IMG/VR virus record: IMGVR_UViG_3300044712_001351
Location: 1-29,715 of that record
Direction: 5' to 3' (one strand)
DNA from: a virus
DNA: 29,715 bases
Shown: in pieces, positions 5,592-15,608 of the stretch
How positions within the stretch are numbered: the first letter of the stretch is position 1
How the letters are laid out: each line of letters begins with the position of its first letter
The notes under the pieces: generated by a model
Databases searched by the model: none
What the model saw: only the letters and a program-made list of their open reading frames with translations
Told to the model about the DNA's origin: nothing
Program-made: the position numbers and the translations under genes

Positions 5592-5664
5592 GCCCCCGTA
5601 GCTCAATGGATAGAGTCGTTCACTTCGAATGAAAAGGTTGCGCGTTCGAGCCGCGCCGGGGGCG
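5592..5664 (+). tRNA. tRNA-Arg (anticodon TCG)
   Basis: A full cloverleaf is visible: acceptor GCCCCCG/CGGGGGC, D-arm GCTC/GAGT, anticodon loop CTTCGAA giving TCG, T-arm GCGCG-TTCGAGC-CGCGC, discriminator G. The top pair of the anticodon stem (27-43) is a G-A mismatch and CCA is not encoded. It reads CGA/CGN Arg codons. It may be phage-borne or may be the integration target; an intrinsic terminator follows at once. Confidence 0.9.
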
Positions 5665-5670
5665 CTAAAT

Positions 5671-5751: not shown

Positions 5752-6198
5752 ATGAAACAGTGCGCACGCTGCAAGGAGTATAAAGACGAGTCTGAGTTCA
5801 ACTGGCGCTGGCAAGATCGGGGTGTGTATCAATCCGTCTGCCGTGACTGCCAGCACAAACAAGCCAGAGATCACTACGAAAAGAACTCGGACAATATTAA
5901 AACCAAATCATCAGAAACCAGAAAGAGAGCAAGTGAGGAGGCACAAAGGTTTATATACGAATACCTCTCGTATTCGACATGCAAAGACTGCGGAGAATAT
6001 GACTTTGCCGTTCTGACCTTTGACCACGTAAGAGGTAAAAAAGGCCACGACATCTCCACGATGGCAGCTCAAGGCTACTCCATTGATTCCATAAAAGCGG
6101 AAATCGAGTTATGCGAAGTGGTTTGTGCAAATTGTCATATGAGAAGAGAAAACGAAAGGAGATCTGGAGGAAGATATAGGCGCTTTTGGCCGGAATAA
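5752..6198 (+). CDS. HNH endonuclease-like protein with N-terminal zinc finger (paralogue 1)
   Basis: The 148-aa product starts MKQCARCKEYKDESEFNWRW with CxxC and a second CRDC, a typical N-terminal zinc module of phage HNH proteins. The C-terminal half holds CKDCGEYDFAVLTFDHVRGKK and VVCANCHMRR, giving the HNH metal and catalytic pattern with the two CxxC pairs and the D-H of TFDHV. GGGAG lies close before the ATG. It is a paralogue of the next gene in the same order and orientation. A nicking or homing-type role, or a packaging accessory, are possible. Confidence 0.85.
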   Translation: MKQCARCKEYKDESEFNWRWQDRGVYQSVCRDCQHKQARDHYEKNSDNIKTKSSETRKRASEEAQRFIYEYLSYSTCKDCGEYDFAVLTFDHVRGKKGHDISTMAAQGYSIDSIKAEIELCEVVCANCHMRRENERRSGGRYRRFWPE

Positions 6199-6203
6199 CA
6201 AAG

Positions 6204-6232
6204 AAGAGGTGGCCCAATAGCCACCTCTTTTA
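6204..6232 (+). terminator. Intrinsic terminator after the first HNH gene
   Basis: Stem AAGAGGTGGC/GCCACCTCTT with loop CCAATA, followed by TTTTAAT. The T- and A-rich flanks could allow some function in both directions. Confidence 0.85.
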
Positions 6233-6262
6233 ATTCCAGCAGACGTATGTTAATATGCAACT

Positions 6263-6715
6263 ATGGTGTGCAATCACTGCAAAATAGACAAAAGTGAAGA
6301 TCAGTTTTGGTGGAGTAATAAAAAATTAAATAAAAAGTGCAATTATTGTCGTGAGTGTGGAAGCATGCACAAGCACCGTTACCATTACCGGCATAGAGAT
6401 AGACTTGTTGCTAGATCAAAAAAACAATATCACGAAAGCAGAGTAAGAATTAAAAAATATATCTTTGATTATCTGCTAACTCACCCGTGCGTAGTTTGCG
6501 GGGAAAGGGATACAGTTGTTTTAGAGTTTGACCATGTGAAAAGAGAGGATAAAGTATTGCCTATCGGCAATATGAGAAATCACTTGTACTCCCTAGAAAA
6601 AATCAAAAGTGAAATTAAAAAGTGCCAAGTTCTATGCGCAAATTGCCATAGGAGAAAAACCGCGACGGACTTGGGCTGGAACAAAGAACACCAATACTTC
6701 AACAACCCAGTTTAA
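6263..6715 (+). CDS. HNH endonuclease-like protein with N-terminal zinc finger (paralogue 2)
   Basis: A 150-aa protein starting MVCNHCKIDKSEDQFWWSNK with CNHC and CNYCREC, a basic helical middle (RYHYRHRDRLVARSKKQYHE), then CVVCGERDTVVLEFDHVKRED and VLCANCHRRK. Domain order and motifs match the upstream HNH protein, although codon use is AT-richer, suggesting a different arrival time. The ATG lies six bases after TAATAT, a possible leaderless start; no good Shine-Dalgarno is present. The gene ends four bases into the convergent HTH gene. Confidence 0.85.
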   Translation: MVCNHCKIDKSEDQFWWSNKKLNKKCNYCRECGSMHKHRYHYRHRDRLVARSKKQYHESRVRIKKYIFDYLLTHPCVVCGERDTVVLEFDHVKREDKVLPIGNMRNHLYSLEKIKSEIKKCQVLCANCHRRKTATDLGWNKEHQYFNNPV

Positions 6716-6966: not shown

Positions 6967-8619
6967 TTAGCGCCGGTTCATACGCCTATCTCGCAATTCA
7001 TACCAAGCCGATCTTATATTGCGAACTGTGACGGCATCAAACCCAAGTGTTCCATGCAGGACTACACTATCAACGTAATCCAACGCTTCGGTCTCTTTGG
7101 CCTTTCTCAGAAGTGCATCTACTTTTTCAATATCGAGCTGGGTATCATCCCGGTATGGGATTGGCAGTTCCTCGGCTTCCCTTGGCTCAAGCTCAAGGAC
7201 CCCTCCCCCATAGCTTCTGCCGCATACTTCAGCCCATGCGAGAGTTAGGGAATTGAAGAAGGTAGCAGCCAGTAGGGTCGGAGAGATACCGTTGAACCTG
7301 ACTCGGTGAATGGTATCAGTCGTAGTTGCGCCTGCCTGATTGACCACCAATAAAGGATACTTGTGAATTTGGCGGAACATAAACCCGCCTGGCACATAAA
7401 CAGATGGAACGTCATACCACCGTGGCCTGATCCGGCATTTGTAGCCCTTATGGATATCGTCTGCTTCTCCTGACTTGATATAGTCATGAAGCGACTGCGG
7501 GAAAGTGTTTGCTGACTTCCCGGTCAAATCCAGTAAATAAGCCGGCTGGGTCAAACTGTACTTTACTAAGTCTGCTTCCGTATAGAGAGCTGACGTTAAA
7601 GCTGAAGTCCTGCCGACAATTGGAACAGTAAACTCTTCAACCCCAAGCGCCCTGCGGGTATTTGCATCAAGAACAAAGAAGCTGTTTCTTCCGGTAACAA
7701 CACCAACGTCAACTTCGGCTATCTTTCCAAGGTGGGTCAGCCCTGGTGCTTGCTGGGCTTCGTCCAAAGCATTGAATGATTTACCGGAAAGAAAAAGTGA
7801 TGTCCATTTCATCCCGTTTCTTGAGTGCTTTGCTTCTACGTGCGAAATGGTATTTTCCAAATCCTGTAAAACCAGTTCTTCACCGCTCTCAAATTCGATG
7901 GTGTGGATGTCAGAGGATGGACCTGGCTGCTCTCTTTTACCTTCGGCCAGAAGTAAAACAACTTCCTGCTGGATGTCTGGGAATACCAGCTTTTTAAAAC
8001 CAACAATCACTACATGGTCAAAAACCTTGCTTAATCTCGATCTCAACTCAGCGGCATAGTTGACCTGCAATAGTTCAGCAGGCACTACCATCGCAAGCCT
8101 TCCGCCCGGGCGCAGCAGCTCAATCCCTAATTGAATAAACGCTGTCCAGGCGTTGGCCAGCTTAGTTGGTTTGTATTTAGCTTCCCTCAGATGGGCAAAA
8201 GCTATTGTCCGCGACTCATCATCAAAATACTGGAACCTGATAAAGGGTGGATTTCCGGCGAAGACATCAAACTGTTCTTCATTCTTCAGGCTCGAATATT
8301 CTTTAAAAAAGTCATTGCAAGCCCAAGTGATCTGCACCGGATGGTCAAACTCCCTGACGCGGCGCTGGGCTTTTAAAAGCTCGTTTTCCTCGATTTCAAC
8401 GGCTACAATCGACAAAGATGGTAAGTTCTCACGTGCGGCCTTTTTTGCTATGGCTTCAACGAAATTACCATCCCCGCAGCTAGACTCTAATATGCGCTCC
8501 CTGCCGGTCCGCACAGCCCAATCAATCAGGTAATCTGCAAGCTTAAGGGGCGTGTAGTATCCGCCCCTAAGTTTCTGCTCACCTGCCGGCTTCTTATTCG
8601 TCAAAAAGGAAAAATCCAT
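6967..8619 (-). CDS. N6-adenine DNA methyltransferase (Eco57I/TaqI-like class)
   Basis: The 550-aa protein has SAM-binding motif I (ILESSCGDGNFVEA, about residues 45-57), motif II acid in VAVEIEE and catalytic motif IV NPPF in FDVFAGNPPFIRF (about 123-130), the N6-adenine (gamma-type) signature. YYTP near residue 22 is motif X-like. The C-terminal half (TGRNSFFVLDANT..., SYGGGVLELEPREAEELPIP) resembles target-recognition domains of this class. It follows the probable endonuclease by 27 bases in one operon and should methylate its recognition sequence. The ATG at 8619 is used; a preceding in-frame TTG is an alternative. Confidence 0.9.
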   Translation of the reverse strand: MDFSFLTNKKPAGEQKLRGGYYTPLKLADYLIDWAVRTGRERILESSCGDGNFVEAIAKKAARENLPSLSIVAVEIEENELLKAQRRVREFDHPVQITWACNDFFKEYSSLKNEEQFDVFAGNPPFIRFQYFDDESRTIAFAHLREAKYKPTKLANAWTAFIQLGIELLRPGGRLAMVVPAELLQVNYAAELRSRLSKVFDHVVIVGFKKLVFPDIQQEVVLLLAEGKREQPGPSSDIHTIEFESGEELVLQDLENTISHVEAKHSRNGMKWTSLFLSGKSFNALDEAQQAPGLTHLGKIAEVDVGVVTGRNSFFVLDANTRRALGVEEFTVPIVGRTSALTSALYTEADLVKYSLTQPAYLLDLTGKSANTFPQSLHDYIKSGEADDIHKGYKCRIRPRWYDVPSVYVPGGFMFRQIHKYPLLVVNQAGATTTDTIHRVRFNGISPTLLAATFFNSLTLAWAEVCGRSYGGGVLELEPREAEELPIPYRDDTQLDIEKVDALLRKAKETEALDYVDSVVLHGTLGFDAVTVRNIRSAWYELRDRRMNRR

Positions 8620-8646
8620 CAAGACACCAATACTCCCAAAGATGTG

Positions 8647-9414
8647 CTACGTTTCCTCCTCATCCTCAACGATGACTTCAGCTACGTTATGCGGTGGCAA
8701 ACCCTTATATCGATCCAGGTAATGGGGAAATAGGGTTTGGGAAAACTTTTCATACCGCAGATTTGAGGAAGGGGCCGGATTGGTTTCTGATACTGTTCCG
8801 GTCTGTGGATCCCAGAGGACAAGGGCAATAGCTTCTGCAAGATGCGCCTGGTCTAAAACGTCTTTCCGATTACCAAGTCGTTCTAATGTTCTAATTATAT
8901 CAACTTCTTGGCGATATCCGACTGCTGGTTTTGGCAAAACCACAATGAAAGCAACAACCGCATACGGGAAGCGAGTATGAACTGTAGCCGCTTCGGTAGA
9001 CAGATCGTTGATCATATTCTGCCAGTTCTTGGCAATGCTTTTGGCATCATTTAAAGTCTTGCTGTCAAACACTACCCTTGGACCGTCCGGACGGTAGGCT
9101 GCGTCAAAGTTTTGTGGACGGATACCGCCGATAATTCTGACCGTTCCGACCTCAACACAATCTGCCTGAACAGGGAGCAGTGAATTACCACCGGGAGTAC
9201 AAACAGGAATACCCCCTAATGCAGTAGCCAACACCTGGCCAAAAGATCGGTCTATAAAGGAAGCAAAATTAACCGACTGCTGCCGGTCAAAAGCATTTAC
9301 CTTTTTAGCTTTGTTATTTCCAGGGTTAACGTCCGCTAACCACAATTGTCCCCAACGCCGCAATTGCTCCTGGTCGATCACCAATGGAGGCATAGAGTTT
9401 GCCAGGACTGCCAT
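8647..9414 (-). CDS. Probable restriction endonuclease (PD-(D/E)XK-like)
   Basis: The 255-aa product contains NFDAAYRPDGPRVVFDSKTL (about residues 103-122), where the acidic residues and D-S-K fit a PD-(D/E)XK core. The next helix (AKNWQNMINDLSTEA) and a hydrophobic strand (FPYAVVAFIVVLPKP) suit that fold. It lies directly upstream of a DNA methyltransferase, the usual type II layout. GGGGTGG precedes the ATG. Start MAVLANSMPP. The C-terminus is acidic (VEDEEET). Family placement is by motif and context only. Confidence 0.7.
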   Translation of the reverse strand: MAVLANSMPPLVIDQEQLRRWGQLWLADVNPGNNKAKKVNAFDRQQSVNFASFIDRSFGQVLATALGGIPVCTPGGNSLLPVQADCVEVGTVRIIGGIRPQNFDAAYRPDGPRVVFDSKTLNDAKSIAKNWQNMINDLSTEAATVHTRFPYAVVAFIVVLPKPAVGYRQEVDIIRTLERLGNRKDVLDQAHLAEAIALVLWDPQTGTVSETNPAPSSNLRYEKFSQTLFPHYLDRYKGLPPHNVAEVIVEDEEET

Positions 9415-12012: not shown

Positions 12013-12271
12013 TAAGTTGCTCCATTATCCTCATCACGTAATAAGCCAGCAGTTTCCCTTTTGCCCCGTTGGGTAGTTCCTCATAGTCTTCCATGGTGAA
12101 CGTTCGTAGAAAAGCAAAAGGGATGGATTTCGGTTCAAACCTGTCCATTTTGTTCTCCAAACAGTCCTCACAAGCATCACTCATCTGCAATTTGCAGATC
12201 CTGCAAAGGGCTGTGTTTGGAGTTACTATGTATTCAGTTGTTGGTCTGGTCTCCTTCTCCACTCGTTTCAT
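11993..12271 (-). CDS. 92-aa zinc-finger protein
   Basis: From ATG 12271 the protein is MKRVEKETRPTTEYIVTPNT followed by CRICKLQMSDACEDCLENK, which has CRIC and CEDC pairs forming a likely zinc site, and a helical C-terminus (MEDYEELPNGAKGKLLAYYVMRIMEQL). A TTG at 12295 is in frame but falls inside the opposite promoter. It is divergent from the tRNA leader transcript, only 28 bases from the leader ATG, so expression of the two may be linked. Function unknown. Confidence 0.65.
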   Translation of the reverse strand: MKRVEKETRPTTEYIVTPNTALCRICKLQMSDACEDCLENKMDRFEPKSIPFAFLRTFTMEDYEELPNGAKGKLLAYYVMRIMEQLNGYDTR

Positions 12272-12283
12272 CTTAACACCCAG

Positions 12284-12292
12284 TGCTATAAT
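12284..12292 (+). promoter_or_regulatory. Extended -10 promoter of the tRNA-Gln/Asn operon
   Basis: TGCTATAAT is a perfect extended -10 (TATAAT at 12287-12292). The -35 position is poor. The first ATG follows after CAACTTG (seven bases), so the transcript would begin at or next to the leader start codon. Confidence 0.7.
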
Positions 12293-12299
12293 CAACTTG

Positions 12300-12341
12300 A
12301 TGACCGATTTTGCTAATAATCAGAACCAACAGACCTCTTAA
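12300..12341 (+). CDS. 13-codon Asn/Gln leader peptide of a tRNA operon
   Basis: The short ORF encodes MTDFANNQNQQTS. Codons 6-11 are AAT AAT CAG AAC CAA CAG, six consecutive Asn or Gln codons, exactly those read by the tRNA-Gln(CTG), tRNA-Asn(GTT) and tRNA-Gln(TTG) genes that begin 51 bases downstream. The 5' arm of the first hairpin lies within these codons, and the TAA stop falls just before the second pairing segment. This matches the layout of trp, his and leu leader peptides. The start is probably leaderless. The peptide itself probably has no function; ribosome position on it would be the signal. Confidence 0.8.
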   Translation: MTDFANNQNQQTS

Positions 12342-12360
12342 GGGGGCTTGGTTCTTTTTG
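12322..12360 (+). terminator. Attenuator hairpin 1:2
   Basis: AGAACCAA (12322-12329, inside the leader codons) pairs perfectly with TTGGTTCT (12348-12355), followed by TTTTG. An inner CCTC-TTAA-GGGG hairpin stacks inside. It is both the pause hairpin (1:2) of a trp-type attenuator and, with its U-run, a possible terminator. Confidence 0.8.
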
Positions 12361-12374
12361 TTTTGCTAAGCCCC
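12343..12374 (+). promoter_or_regulatory. Antiterminator pairing 2:3
   Basis: GGGGCTTGGT (12343-12352) can pair over ten positions with GCTAAGCCCC (12365-12374), including two G-U pairs. It uses the 3' arm of hairpin 1:2 and the 5' arm of terminator 3:4, so it excludes both. It would form when a ribosome stalled on the Asn/Gln codons covers segment 1. Confidence 0.7.
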
Positions 12375-12390
12375 AAATAGGGGCTTTTTT
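12368..12390 (+). terminator. Attenuator terminator 3:4
   Basis: AAGCCCC (12368-12374), loop AAATA, GGGGCTT (12380-12386) and a T-run to 12390 form a textbook intrinsic terminator ending two bases before the first tRNA. Transcripts would stop here unless 2:3 forms. Confidence 0.9.
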
Positions 12391-12392
12391 AT

Positions 12393-12464
12393 TTCGGGGT
12401 CGTCTAGCTGGTAGGACTTACGGCTCTGACCCGTAAAAGCGTGGTTCAAACCCATGCCCCGAAA
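12393..12464 (+). tRNA. tRNA-Gln (anticodon CTG)
   Basis: Acceptor TTCGGGG/CCCCGAA, D-arm GTCT/GGAC, anticodon stem TACGG/CCGTA with loop CTCTGAC (CTG), T-arm CGTGG-TTCAAAC-CCATG, discriminator A, and CCA encoded at 12465-12467. The first pair is U1-A72. The leader contains CAG at codons 8 and 11. Confidence 0.95.
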
Positions 12465-12468
12465 CCAA

Positions 12469-12539
12469 TGGCAGCTCGTTCAATGGTAGGACGGTGGCCT
12501 GTTAAGCCATTAATTAGGGTTCGACTCCCTGGTTGCCAG
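12469..12539 (+). tRNA. tRNA-Asn (anticodon GTT)
   Basis: Acceptor TGGCAGC/GTTGCCA, D-arm GTTC/GGAC, anticodon loop CTGTTAA (GTT), T-arm TAGGG-TTCGACT-CCCTG, discriminator G; the next three bases are CCT. It starts one base after the CCA of the previous tRNA. The first pair is U1-A72. It reads the leader AAT and AAC codons. Confidence 0.95.
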
Positions 12540-12544
12540 CCTAT

Positions 12545-12615
12545 TCTGGGATCGTCTAATGGTAGGACGGGTGTTTTTGGAACACCTAATCGAGGTTCGA
12601 TCCCTTGTCCCAGAA
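12545..12615 (+). tRNA. tRNA-Gln (anticodon TTG)
   Basis: Acceptor TCTGGGA/TCCCAGA, D-arm GTCT/GGAC, anticodon stem GGTGT/ACACC with loop TTTTGGA (TTG), T-arm CGAGG-TTCGATC-CCTTG, discriminator A, no complete CCA. The first pair is U1-A72. It reads CAA (leader codon 10) and, by wobble, CAG. A CAGAGC/GCTCTG hairpin without a strong T-run follows. Confidence 0.95.
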
Positions 12616-12648
12616 CACGGCCAGAGCTGGAGGCTCTGACCGCTTATC

Positions 12649-12828
12649 TTAGCCTCTCGCTACAACTTTGATCATAGCGAACGGCTGAAGCAGCAATACC
12701 GCCCCGCAATTCATGCACTCATAGCAAAACCACTCTGGTACCTCACCAGCAAGTGCTTTGAACTTCTCGGGAAGTGTGCGCTTCTCTACCGCACTCCGGC
12801 ACACCGGACATTGACGATAGATCGACAT
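12649..12828 (-). CDS. 59-aa zinc-ribbon protein
   Basis: The product MSIYRQCPVCRSAVEKRTLP has CPVC and later CYECMNC, a compact zinc ribbon, followed by a hydrophobic tail (GAVLLLQPFAMIKVV). GGAGGTGAT precedes the ATG at nine-base spacing, one of the best Shine-Dalgarno sites in the window. It ends beyond the hairpin following the tRNA cluster, convergent with it. Role unknown, probably nucleic-acid binding. Confidence 0.7.
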   Translation of the reverse strand: MSIYRQCPVCRSAVEKRTLPEKFKALAGEVPEWFCYECMNCGAVLLLQPFAMIKVVARG

Positions 12829-12892
12829 TTGGTCATCACCTCCAGTCTGGCTGCTACAACGGCTCTAACTTTGGCCGGAATAGCCTGTTTTT

Positions 12893-12920
12893 ATGTACAT
12901 CGTTGTTGTAAAATGTACAT
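12893..12920. promoter_or_regulatory. Twin ATGTACAT palindromes
   Basis: The 8-base palindrome ATGTACAT occurs at 12893-12900 and again at 12913-12920, start-to-start distance 20 bases (about two helical turns), in the divergent gap between the zinc-ribbon and HNH genes. The second copy overlaps the HNH start codon. A TAAAAT -10-like hexamer spans 12910-12915. This looks like a cooperative operator. Confidence 0.5.
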
Positions 12921-13332
12921 AGTGGCTACTAATAATCGGGAATACGCACATGACTACTACATGAAGCACAGAGATAGACTCTTGTTGCTTTGCAAAGCGA
13001 GACGGGATGCACACAGTAAAGAGGAGAATAGGCGTCGTGCTTTGCGAAGAAAAAACAACCCAGAGGTCAGTGATAAGTGGCGTCGTTCTCCTGAGGGTAG
13101 AGAAGCAGCAGTTAGATACGTCGAGAAGTACATGAAAAACAATCCCGAAAAGATTACTGCATGGAAAACCAGTAAAAAACTTCCGATGAAACCTTGCGAA
13201 GTATGCGGTAATCCTAAGGGTGAGAAGCATCATCCTGACTACACTAAGCCTCTTGATGTTGTGTATCTCTGCCGTGTTCATCACATAGCCACACGCAGTT
13301 CGTATTCCTCCAACGGGTTGATTGCCCGATAA
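12913..13332 (+). CDS. HNH endonuclease (HH-N-H type)
   Basis: From ATG 12913 the product is a 139-aa protein with a strongly basic middle (HKDR-like repeats, RRALRRKNNPEVSDKWRRSP) and the classic phage HNH block CEVCGNPKGEKHHPDYTKPL followed by VVYLCRVHH, where HH, the later Cys and the last HH form the metal and catalytic centre. A GTG at 12922 is also plausible, as it lies seven bases after TAAAAT. It may be a free-standing homing or nicking enzyme; it separates the tRNA module from the ATPase module. It is not closely similar to the two upstream HNH paralogues. Confidence 0.85.
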   Translation: MYIVATNNREYAHDYYMKHRDRLLLLCKARRDAHSKEENRRRALRRKNNPEVSDKWRRSPEGREAAVRYVEKYMKNNPEKITAWKTSKKLPMKPCEVCGNPKGEKHHPDYTKPLDVVYLCRVHHIATRSSYSSNGLIAR

Positions 13333-13368: not shown

Positions 13369-14868
13369 TTAAGCGGTATTTCTCTGTGGCGGTGGTGTAG
13401 TAAGGTTCCGTTGATTGACCACTTCCAGCGCATCACGAATGGGAATAGCTCTTTGTAAAAAGAGTTTTTCCTTATATGCGTCCACTTCTTCAATGTTCTC
13501 AACTGCCGGCACGTCAGCGGTCTGCAGCACGTGCCTCACAATAGGATCTTCCTTGCTCTCGTCAAAGTACCTTCTCATCACCATTTCCCGCTTTTTAAAT
13601 CCCTGTATCCACTGCGAGTGCAGCGTGTAGACTCCATGTTCAGGTTCAGTGATGGGATTCTGGCTCTCGTTTCTTGCCTGTTGTTTGACCTGCTTCGGGT
13701 TGTAGTGAAACATCTGCTCGGCTATTTGTCTGGCATCATTCACGTCCTGAACAGAGAAAGAAATGATGTTTCCGAAACTCCAAATCTGCTCTCTGAGTTC
13801 TTCTGTGAGCTGCCATAAGGCTTGAACCACTACAATCAGCCAAACCTTCCTGCTCCGGTAAAAAGTGGATATCTGGCCTATCTCCTTGGCCATACCGGGC
13901 ACTTCAAACAGAACGGGGGCTTCGTCTATGACATAAAGAAATCCTTTGTCGTTTGGGTTGTTGGGCCGGCGTCTGTTCATTTCCTGCCGTATTAGAGAAT
14001 GTATCTGGGTGAAGATATAGTTAAGCTGTAGCTCCTGATCGAGCATCTTTTCTCCGGATACCAGTACGATCAAACCTTTCTCCACGGCTTCGGTTGGGCT
14101 CCACGATGGTCTGTAGTGGCCTAGCCTAGCTCTCATAAACTTTGGCTCCACAATTCCCAAAATTGAGCGCAAAGTGAAAGACCGCATTTCCCGTTCTTTC
14201 GGTTCGACATCTGACCCAAAGAAATTCTTGAAATAAAAGACGGCTTCCGGAACTTTTGTCATAACCAGCCCAAGAGCCATTGCCCGTTGTGATCCATCCA
14301 GAAGCAGCTTTTTTCCTTCTGTGATCTGCCAACACTCCCCATGTTCGTTTTCTAATGCTGTCAGAACCCTAAACAGCTCAGGGGCCATTTCCTCAAGCGC
14401 GGGCTTCCCCAACATCCCCAGTTCCATCGTTTTCGGGTTTAACCTTCTCAAGTTTTCCGCGACCCGCTGCAATTGGGTCTCAAATGGCACTCCATAGCTT
14501 TTATGAAACTCCGGCTGGGTGTGGGTGTACTCCGGGTGATTTAGGATATCAACCACCAACCGTTTCTCCAGCTTTTCCCGGTCTTCTTTCGGAAGCCTCA
14601 TGACAATAGCCAGAATGTCATTGCATAGTGGGCCGGAAGCATCGAGGATGACTGCACCCTGATCGGGATAAGTGAGTGCATAAGCGACAATCAATCCGGC
14701 GACGAAGCGGGTCTTACCGCTGCTCGGTTTTCCAATGCAGAACATCCCACGGATCAGCCCGGGCAAATACACTTTCCCTTCGAAGTCATCCCGCACATTT
14801 GGAATTGGTGGGGTCTTGCTTCCGAACAGCATGTATTTCGTAATCGCAAGAAGTGAAGACCTGTTCAT
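13369..14868 (-). CDS. Type IV coupling protein/TraG-VirB4-like ATPase
   Basis: The 499-aa protein has a Walker A motif (CIGKPSSGKTRFV) near residue 45 and Walker B FLYVIDEAP about 270 residues later, followed by a sensor-like VVVQALWQLTEELREQIWSFG; this order fits VirD4/TraG/FtsK-HerA-type DNA-pumping ATPases. YRSRKVWLIVVVQ is typical of the P-loop conjugation group. It overlaps nothing downstream and follows the Replic_Relax-like gene by two bases. In conjugative elements such proteins connect the relaxosome to a type IV secretion channel; here, in a phage context, it may be a relic of an ICE or plasmid or may move DNA itself. AAGG precedes the ATG at 14868. Confidence 0.75.
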   Translation of the reverse strand: MNRSSLLAITKYMLFGSKTPPIPNVRDDFEGKVYLPGLIRGMFCIGKPSSGKTRFVAGLIVAYALTYPDQGAVILDASGPLCNDILAIVMRLPKEDREKLEKRLVVDILNHPEYTHTQPEFHKSYGVPFETQLQRVAENLRRLNPKTMELGMLGKPALEEMAPELFRVLTALENEHGECWQITEGKKLLLDGSQRAMALGLVMTKVPEAVFYFKNFFGSDVEPKEREMRSFTLRSILGIVEPKFMRARLGHYRPSWSPTEAVEKGLIVLVSGEKMLDQELQLNYIFTQIHSLIRQEMNRRRPNNPNDKGFLYVIDEAPVLFEVPGMAKEIGQISTFYRSRKVWLIVVVQALWQLTEELREQIWSFGNIISFSVQDVNDARQIAEQMFHYNPKQVKQQARNESQNPITEPEHGVYTLHSQWIQGFKKREMVMRRYFDESKEDPIVRHVLQTADVPAVENIEEVDAYKEKLFLQRAIPIRDALEVVNQRNLTTPPPQRNTA

Positions 14869-14870
14869 AC

Positions 14871-15608
14871 TTACCTTAGAGGGGCAACCTCCCCATCCTG
14901 CCATAAATAAATCGAAGCTGTTAATGCTTCGCCCAATGCCTGGTTCCGGAATATCCGGCTGTCGGTGAAATAGAAAGGGCTGATGGATTTGCCATCATGA
15001 ACGAACGTCAACAAAGATCGGTTCCGGTCAATAAAGCCTTTGATTCTTTCCATTTCCACATCGCATACAAACACAACCATTGGTTTCTCGATCCCCTCAA
15101 TAACTTTCGAGTATCTTTCGACCTTGAATTTCAGAAGCCTTTTAAAGTTGTCATCGGTGCAGAACTCAAATAGGATCGTAGTCCCCGAACTTAACCTAAG
15201 CGCCCATTCAGGCTTTAACGGTCTGCCCATGAAAAATGAGGAAGGGATGTATTCTTTTGGTAGAGGATCGGCCCACCAGAAGCGAATCAATCCTCCGGTG
15301 ACATTTAATTCGTGGTACATCGTATGTGGGTATGTGTGGGATCGCTGGCGGTTCACCCGTTTTACAGAATAGGCTAGTTTGCCCTCGAACGGATGAGTTA
15401 CGAGCTCGCCATGGTCCACCAGTTTTTTCAGGCTCCTTTCAACATATCCGTTATCGCGTGAAAAGCTGCCGTGTAAAAATCCCCAGTAATGTTCCTTCAA
15501 AGCCCACCCACCAAACTTCTGACCAGCCTTTCGTATGTCTTCTAAGGTGATCTTTTCCTCTGGTAATGGTCCGGATTTTTCAGCCTCATAAACTGTGATG
15601 CTCGTCAT
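14871..15608 (-). CDS. Replic_Relax (replication-relaxation)-like protein
   Basis: The 245-aa product starts MTSITVYEAEKSG after GGAGGCAGT. It has a winged-helix N-terminal part (residues about 20-100, KLVDHGELVTHPFEGKLAYSVKRV) and a C-terminal part with YHELNVTGGLIRFWW, PEWALRLSSGTTILFEFCTDDNFKRLLKFKVERYSKVI, resembling the Replic_Relax family found beside coupling-protein genes in plasmids and ICEs. The E-F-C-T-D and K-x-E-R-Y pattern fits the nuclease-like half. It is paired with the ATPase gene, two bases upstream of it. Function inferred. Confidence 0.65.
   Translation of the reverse strand: MTSITVYEAEKSGPLPEEKITLEDIRKAGQKFGGWALKEHYWGFLHGSFSRDNGYVERSLKKLVDHGELVTHPFEGKLAYSVKRVNRQRSHTYPHTMYHELNVTGGLIRFWWADPLPKEYIPSSFFMGRPLKPEWALRLSSGTTILFEFCTDDNFKRLLKFKVERYSKVIEGIEKPMVVFVCDVEMERIKGFIDRNRSLLTFVHDGKSISPFYFTDSRIFRNQALGEALTASIYLWQDGEVAPLR

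Follow-up and report, generated by a model that had tools for sequence, protein, structure and literature searches.

The tRNA operon and its leader

What controls three phage tRNA genes that lie directly behind an intrinsic terminator and a very short reading frame, when that frame is rich in the very codons these tRNAs read? The question is raised by a locus in what we call the window, the whole stretch of DNA analysed (29,715 bases, a complete record of IMG/VR). An earlier note, made from the letters alone, had described an extended -10 promoter, a 13-codon ORF with six Asn/Gln codons and the genes of tRNA-Gln(CTG), tRNA-Asn(GTT) and tRNA-Gln(TTG) downstream. It had also claimed that the three tRNAs read all six codons, and that four RNA segments can form mutually exclusive 1:2, 2:3 and 3:4 pairings. 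All of these claims held, the last by both sequence complementarity and folding, and the coordinates given for the elements proved correct. The features are as follows.

12284 to 12292, plus strand: extended -10 promoter TGCTATAAT, read directly from the sequence
12300 to 12341, plus strand: leader peptide ORF MTDFANNQNQQTS-stop, 13 codons, without Shine-Dalgarno, probably leaderless (sequence; shuffle test)
12315 to 12332, plus strand: regulatory codons AAT AAT CAG AAC CAA CAG, all read by the three tRNAs downstream
12322 to 12329, plus strand: segment 1, AGAACCAA, which complements TTGGTTCT at 12349-12356 (1:2) in the full-length fold
12343 to 12356, plus strand: segment 2, of which GGGGCTTGGT (12343-12352) pairs with GCTAAGCCCC (12365-12374) (2:3)
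12365 to 12374, plus strand: segment 3, able to pair with segment 2 (antiterminator) or with segment 4 (terminator)
12368 to 12394, plus strand: intrinsic terminator AAGCCCC-AAATA-GGGGCTT-TTTTATTT, adjoining the first tRNA, whose start is at 12393
12393 to 12467, plus strand: tRNA-Gln(CTG) (ARAGORN, Rfam)
12469 to 12541, plus strand: tRNA-Asn(GTT) (ARAGORN, Rfam)
12545 to 12616, plus strand: tRNA-Gln(TTG) (ARAGORN, Rfam)

The Rfam tRNA scores of the three genes are 50.6-57.5 bits. The leader reads ATG ACC GAT TTT GCT AAT AAT CAG AAC CAA CAG ACC TCT TAA (12300-12341), and an ORF with six consecutive Asn/Gln codons was obtained in 0 of 100,000 dinucleotide shuffles of the leader (a run of at least five, 1e-5). 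The leader also holds the only Asn/Gln codon run of at least five in the six frames of the window. Folded as a whole, the leader adopts 1:2 together with 3:4 at -31.0 kcal/mol (z = -3.4; none of 200 shuffles as good), while the RNA from 12333 onward folds as 2:3 (-24.6). The arms of the terminator, AAGCCCC (12368-12374) and GGGGCTT (12380-12386), form the 3:4 stem of 7 bp with 5 G-C pairs, followed by the T-run TTTTATTT. The leader meets the attenuator criteria of clustered regulatory codons (six consecutive ones among 13), mutually exclusive 1:2, 2:3 and 3:4 helices, and an intrinsic terminator between the leader ORF and the first tRNA (12368-12394). The observation is real, correct in every detail and far beyond chance.

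From the promoter geometry, transcription is expected to start at about 12299-12300. No good -35 box was found for the TGCTATAAT promoter and, because there is no -35 match, the consensus promoter scan did not list it. A promoter combining TGn with TATAAT is known to need no -35 element.

Leaders with other codons in other phages

The locus was compared with others gathered by scanning IMG/VR with two patterns, adjacent tRNA-Asn and tRNA-Gln(TTG) in the first and tRNAs just 3' of a T-run in the second. Further tRNA regions were then taken from the same contigs, giving a total of 513 distinct tRNA operon starts. Both scans are biased, and neither prevalence nor host range can be derived from them. 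The design of leader, terminator and tRNAs recurs in about 10 unrelated phages, each time with other codons that match other tRNAs. The leaders found outside the window and outside the other operons of phage G029 (below) include:

L125, tRNAs Pro-Asn-Gln: leader MVLIQQNQPNTTDVYGSGL, matching run MVLIQQNQPNTT
L110, tRNAs Arg-Gln-Lys: leader MKMIRRQTRKQIQGIRKPWFGFVY, matching run MKMIRRQTRKQIQG
L191, tRNAs Trp-Pro-Cys: leader MFKTNTTNITCWPPGSRGMS, matching run CWPP
L221, tRNAs Thr-Pro: leader MIKVACTHIPTTTPWHRPGVVQ, matching run THIPTTTPWHRP
L221, tRNAs Ala-Val: leader MQTTLVNIIEAMEAIMVEGAEVCL
L222 and L247, tRNAs Lys-Phe-His-Trp-Arg-Ser (KFHWRS): leaders MKTFNKHSRSSKKSFWFKPSS... and MRTINTFKHFSKKSFWFSPNS...
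L247, second operon, tRNAs Arg-Ser-Ser: leader MKLINTSSSSSRLIISKEIRLCV
L178, tRNAs Thr-Asn-Pro-Ser-Ser (TNPSS): leader MKTLNTTNSSTAPVNLGGLLL
L120, tRNAs (Trp)-Asn-Gln: leader MKTTWQNQNSSNEYTSGA; the tRNA-Trp was read by eye in the gap
L276, tRNAs Glu-?-Trp-Cys-Arg: leader ...RTLLERCLWLEK...
L105, tRNAs Phe-Ile-Lys-Val-His-Cys-Gln-Trp: leader ...QHGVICQKWFQ...

The leaders are 13-35 residues long and their sequences are unrelated save for codon content. Between L222 and L247, whose leaders are homologous, the 2:3 helix changes from GTTCGG/CCGAAC to CTCGG/CCGAG, with a compensatory U-A to C-G replacement. A promoter-like box, ATATATAGTATA or ATATATAGAATA, lies directly 5' of the leader ATG in these two loci, which belong to related phages, and also before the second leader of L247.

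Several candidates were set aside. L221 'Ile-Glu', L244 'Glu' and L267 'Trp' have a high ORF-content score but lack a terminator and were left out of the count; L183 (GRRRR 5' of tRNA-Arg), L242, L189 and L326 are doubtful and were excluded from the set of 18 leaders used below; L126 (Asn-Gln with a terminator) has no matching ORF. On the minus strand of L320, 5' of tRNA Pro-Pro, a 41-codon ORF is followed by a 16-bp helix overlapping a terminator, which looks very attenuator-like; its codons, compared only with the two tRNAs called at this place, do not match them. No leader was found in six named tRNA-carrying phages (PaP1, RHph_N38, CcrBL10, Mvi-JY20, SPAsTU and Vibrio D507), and no tRNA in the LR745206 stretch.

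How these leaders would begin translation seems to differ. No Shine-Dalgarno sequence precedes the window ATG at 12300, which lies 7 nt past the -10 hexamer; with a transcription start at about 12299/12300, the ORF would therefore be read as a leaderless message. The distance is 6-7 nt in L125, L110 and the Thr-Pro operon of L221, and in L276 the ATG stands about 4 nt past a Bacteroidetes-type TATATTTG. Judging from spacing, leaderless initiation at a 5'-AUG would fit all five. A Shine-Dalgarno-like sequence is present in L191, in the Ala-Val operon of L221 and in most leaders of G029.

Six leaders in one phage

G029, a 416-kb phage first met through its Arg-Gln-Lys operon (L110), carries six leader-type tRNA operons, each leader matching its own tRNAs. 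Besides that of L110 these are:

tRNAs Trp-Leu-Leu-Leu-Gln-Cys-Ser-Leu: leader MKSLSLQCQLLSSSLLSWCLLSSVPVGTK, with 21 consecutive residues all in the tRNA set
tRNAs Glu-Ala-Ala-Glu-Glu-Phe-Glu-Val-Val: leader MNKNFNIEIVAFAAERIAVFAERVFAIDNSVHRFK
tRNAs Tyr-Tyr-Met-Met-Ser-Ser: leader MQNVHYTSFVISSNSMFGYSYYMMGYSGK
tRNAs Asn-Asn-Pro-Pro-Pro-Thr-Thr (NNPPPTT): leader MLFMNTTTNPTNNNPEVLQD
tRNAs Asp-Asp-Lys-Lys-Gly-Gly-His-Gly (DDKKGGHG): leader MTKFVVDMHDVDTRRGGRGFGKHDKDRYRHRVI

The NNPPPTT and DDKKGGHG leaders were found by inspecting the region upstream of G029 operons that were already known. Leaders and operons can be paired in 720 ways, and the true pairing is the best of them all. The match extends to isoacceptors: where the operon includes tRNA-Ser(GCT), the leader has AGY at 7 of its 8 Ser codons, and where it includes Ser(AGA) and Ser(TGA), the leader has TCN at 5 of 6 (Fisher p = 0.026). 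A promoter box, TATATATAAT(A)TATAAA, is common to five of the six leaders. Some G029 tRNA groups (304843, 310757-310993 and 372986 onward) have no leader. Together with the six named phages, these groups show that the device is not general among tRNA-carrying phages.

L330, L390, L110 (G029) and L332 (G030) come from huge phages, whose roughly 55 tRNAs are spread over several operons; six of these operons have a leader of their own. Some of the tRNA groups without a leader contain tRNA-like genes with long insertions or introns. Comparison of G029, G026 and G027 with named phages gave no near matches, or short stretches at tRNA genes only.

Leader content follows tRNA content

The strength of the match between leaders and tRNAs was assessed by permutations that keep the ORFs and the tRNA sets and break only their pairing. 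Leaders were chosen by structure only (terminator, ORF, 2:3 helix near the stop), blind to the tRNAs. For 25 operons with at least two tRNAs, the summed score was 44.2; permuted sums averaged 11.1 and peaked at 24.9, and none of 5,000 permutations reached the true value. The same was true (0/5,000) with the window removed and also with both the window and G029 removed, where the sum was 18.6 against 8.0 (maximum 17.4). A simpler geometry rule, taking ATG ORFs 9-45 codons long with a stop 15-40 nt ahead of a terminator that precedes tRNAs, gave matching leaders (p < 0.05 each) in 14 of 24 multi-tRNA operons where 2.1 were expected (0/2,000 permutations).

A codon-by-codon switch predicted by folding

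To model translation, we folded the RNA 3' of a ribosome whose A site was placed at each codon in turn, assuming a leading edge 12-14 nt from the A-site codon. For the window, the predicted probability of the terminator, in per cent, was M 100, T 98, D 91, F 77, A 0, N 0, N 0, Q 0, N 3, Q 4, Q 19, T 96, S 100 and stop 100; with no ribosome on the RNA, the terminator is also predicted to form (P = 1.00). The model thus predicts antitermination only with a ribosome stalled on the Ala codon or on the six Asn/Gln codons, and termination with a ribosome at the stop. Segment 2 starts 1 nt past the leader stop codon, and a ribosome at the stop would therefore cover it. The geometric criterion of an attenuator, namely that a stall at the regulatory codons frees segment 2 and a ribosome at the stop codon masks it, is met within this folding model and its assumed footprint.

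The 18 leaders are less uniform when segment 4 is present at equilibrium, with a clear switch in only 8 and an unclear one in 10. For the model to hold in leaders without a clear equilibrium switch, kinetic (co-transcriptional) folding is needed, which is accepted for trp. We approximated it by ending the RNA before segment 4 and scoring the pairing of the 5' arm of the terminator with upstream RNA. Placing the ribosome at the median cognate codon gave a mean pairing of 0.81 over the 18 leaders, compared with 0.55 when the middle was shuffled and 0.23 when the ribosome stood at the stop (Wilcoxon p = 4e-6); this test performs better than the equilibrium fold. The distance from stop to terminator is 21-35 nt in all 18 leaders; in most of them, segment 2 is found within the final codons or immediately 3' of the stop.

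The cassette is an insertion

The operon and its leader form a cassette of approximately the following extent:

12273 to 12617, plus strand: inserted cassette, flanked by a conserved GCCGTG hairpin and by the start of a small minus-strand gene

Relatives of the window were found via TerL and via an alignment. In the syntenic relatives L067 and L069, and also in L082, L083 and L085, the flanking minus-strand genes and the GCCGTG hairpin are present and the tRNAs, promoter and leader are absent at the cassette site. This comparison shows the cassette to be an insertion. Since the close relatives lack it, covariation of the window's own helices cannot be tested, and support has to come from analogous rather than homologous leaders. 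As exact DNA patterns, the window terminator plus tRNA have no second copy that we could find; blastn of the leader or the cassette returned only tRNA genes or chance matches. The neighbouring proteins encoded at 8647-9414 and 13369-14904, used as single-sequence queries, found no relatives.

In the relatives, the GCCGTG/CACGGC hairpin (window 12617-12650) stands directly before the Shine-Dalgarno sequence of the small minus-strand gene, which is cysteine-rich. The window cassette is inserted between this hairpin and the start codon, and replaces the Shine-Dalgarno sequence of the small gene.

Proposed mechanism and alternatives

We consider it very likely that ribosome-mediated transcription attenuation of the trp/his type controls the tRNA operon of the window, although translation, termination and the signal are inferred and there are no expression or ribosome data. 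Further points against it are that the window ORF, lacking a Shine-Dalgarno sequence, would have to be initiated leaderless, and that the host is uncertain. In this model, RNA polymerase would start at about 12299 and a ribosome would follow on the 13-codon leader ORF. With charged Gln- and Asn-tRNAs plentiful, the ribosome would reach the stop and cover segment 2; 3:4 would then form and transcription would end before the tRNAs. Should either charged tRNA be scarce, a stall on the Asn/Gln codons would block segment 1, letting 2:3 form in place of the terminator, and tRNA-Gln(CTG), tRNA-Asn(GTT) and tRNA-Gln(TTG) would be made. Starvation, decay of host tRNAs or a tRNA-cutting defence enzyme are possible causes of such a shortage. 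Without translation, 1:2 and 3:4 would form and the operon would be off.

The earlier note had claimed this chain, from a shortage of charged Gln/Asn-tRNA through a stall on segment 1 and formation of 2:3 to production of the tRNAs. It is supported computationally and has no laboratory support. Of the checks it had proposed, folding with the ribosome position varied was run and came out in favour, the antitermination window coinciding with the regulatory codons. A search for covariation of leader codons with anticodons succeeded in unrelated phages, with analogous leaders, the related phages having no cassette. What computation shows is the parts, their mutual exclusion, the codon-by-codon switch and its recurrence with matching codons in unrelated phages; leader translation, stalling, termination, transcription and the physiological signal are inferences.

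The ORF and terminator might instead be the 3' end of a captured host gene (...DFANNQNQQTS-stop), picked up together with the tRNAs, the codon match being coincidental. In favour of this, the frame is open 5' of the ATG at 12300 (ORF 12093-12341), there is no Shine-Dalgarno sequence and comparison with kin shows the cassette to be inserted. However, a strong promoter lies inside the cassette just 5' of the ATG, and the frame, followed upstream beyond about 12272, is antisense to a conserved minus-strand gene. A captured gene end would also leave unexplained the shuffle test, the codon-exact switch and the recurrence with other codons in unrelated phages. Given a promoter inside the cassette and a design that reappears with other codons, we regard this origin as very unlikely.

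Attenuation by the translated leader also has to be weighed against a terminator controlled by other means (a phage antiterminator protein, a T-box-like tRNA-sensing RNA or another ligand), with the ORF only timing the pausing. Folding alone cannot tell what sets the choice, and exclusive hairpins occur in riboswitches and T-boxes too. Yet no T-box or other cis-regulatory Rfam family reaches threshold, segment 2 is at or near the leader stop in most leaders, and codon content tracks tRNA content across operons, for which only a translated sensor offers a simple explanation. Control of this kind therefore seems to us highly improbable. Finally, there might be no regulation at all: the leader peptide would act as a codon sink or have some function as a small protein, and tRNA levels would merely be lowered constitutively by the terminator. 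Some G029 tRNA groups indeed manage without a leader, and another phage uses a strong plain tRNA promoter (PMC11555353). Against this, the leaders share nothing but codon content and have only 13-35 residues, the folding scan places the antitermination window on the cognate codons, and constitutive damping leaves the codon-tRNA match unexplained. We consider this possibility extremely unlikely.

Relation to known systems

Leader-peptide attenuation is known to control amino-acid operons (e.g. PMC1183508). The trp, his, leu, ilv, thr and pheA leaders have the same short ORF with tandem regulatory codons, the same alternative 1:2, 2:3 and 3:4 helices, an intrinsic terminator before the first structural gene and a stop-codon ribosome that covers segment 2. 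They regulate biosynthetic enzymes, whereas the phage leaders regulate tRNAs, so that a stall would be relieved by adding tRNA rather than amino acid. The usual target of an attenuator, biosynthesis of the sensed amino acid, is thus not met here; the target differs, not the mechanism. Unlike the amino-acid operon leaders, those of phages often mix codons for several amino acids, as many as eight, and the window's and several others are apparently leaderless. Attenuators of the pheST type control aminoacyl-tRNA synthetase operons. They likewise restore charged tRNA rather than amino acid supply, but their operons encode synthetases and the phage operons make the tRNA itself. T-box riboswitches too sense tRNA charging via a choice between terminator and antiterminator. 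They do so by binding uncharged tRNA directly with conserved sequence, whereas the phage sensor is a translated ORF, and in the window the T-box (RF00230) gave no Rfam match at the gathering threshold and none in a permissive scan.

In work on phage tRNA arrays and tRNA-based counter-defence, phage tRNAs have been suggested or demonstrated to make good the loss of host tRNAs to defence nucleases (van den Berg 2023, PMC10264068; Nat Commun 2024, PMC11555353). In the searched text of these two papers, leader or attenuation control is not mentioned; PMC11555353 reports a strong promoter. The claim that no leader-peptide attenuator of a tRNA operon has been described held within the literature searched, where we found no report of one (subscription journals and preprints were mostly outside the search). 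Novelty is therefore likely without being certain. The mechanism is known; the tRNA-operon target and the sensing of several amino acids appear to be new. To our knowledge and within that literature, this would be the first leader-peptide attenuation of tRNA genes and the first multi-amino-acid sensors of the tRNA pool.

The finding is larger than first thought, a recurring phage device with a known mechanism, a new target and a new multi-codon logic, for which there is no experiment yet. A bolder reading, which we consider likely, is that phages have widely and repeatedly evolved attenuators that sense the charging of several tRNAs and switch on exactly the operon supplying them. If so, replacement tRNAs would be made only when host tRNAs fail, for example when anticodon-nuclease defences fire, and one huge phage could carry six independent sensors, one per tRNA operon. 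The purpose of phage tRNAs has been debated for decades, with codon compensation, replacement of degraded host tRNAs and evasion of tRNA-cutting defences among the proposals. A switch turned on only by stalls at its own codons would be a direct molecular statement that the tRNAs serve rescue from shortage, and the leader peptides would reveal, from sequence alone, which tRNAs a phage expects to lose.

The phage and the surroundings of its tRNA genes

Among the products encoded in the window are integrase, excisionase, TerL, major head protein, endolysin, tail proteins and several HNH endonucleases, which identify it as a temperate tailed phage or prophage. With three tRNAs within 224 bp on a contig that also encodes integrase, TerL, the major head protein and an endolysin, the locus meets the criterion of a phage tRNA array. 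Relatives of the window TerL are of metagenome origin (62-73% identity). The nearest in a named genome bin (66%) comes from a Patescibacteria assembly, which hints at such a host as a possibility without proving it, and the host remains uncertain.

Another tRNA gene, tRNA-Arg(TCG), lies at 5592-5665 just 3' of the integrase gene and is 79% identical to the tRNA-Arg(TCG) at the corresponding place in the relative G003; it is likely to be linked to the attachment site. HNH endonuclease genes adjoin both tRNA sites of the window (5752-6715 and 12811-13332). The one at 12811-13332 is missing in the relatives and might be a homing endonuclease tied to the cassette insertion. The window also carries a stand-alone Eco57I-type DNA methyltransferase gene (6967-8622, minus strand).
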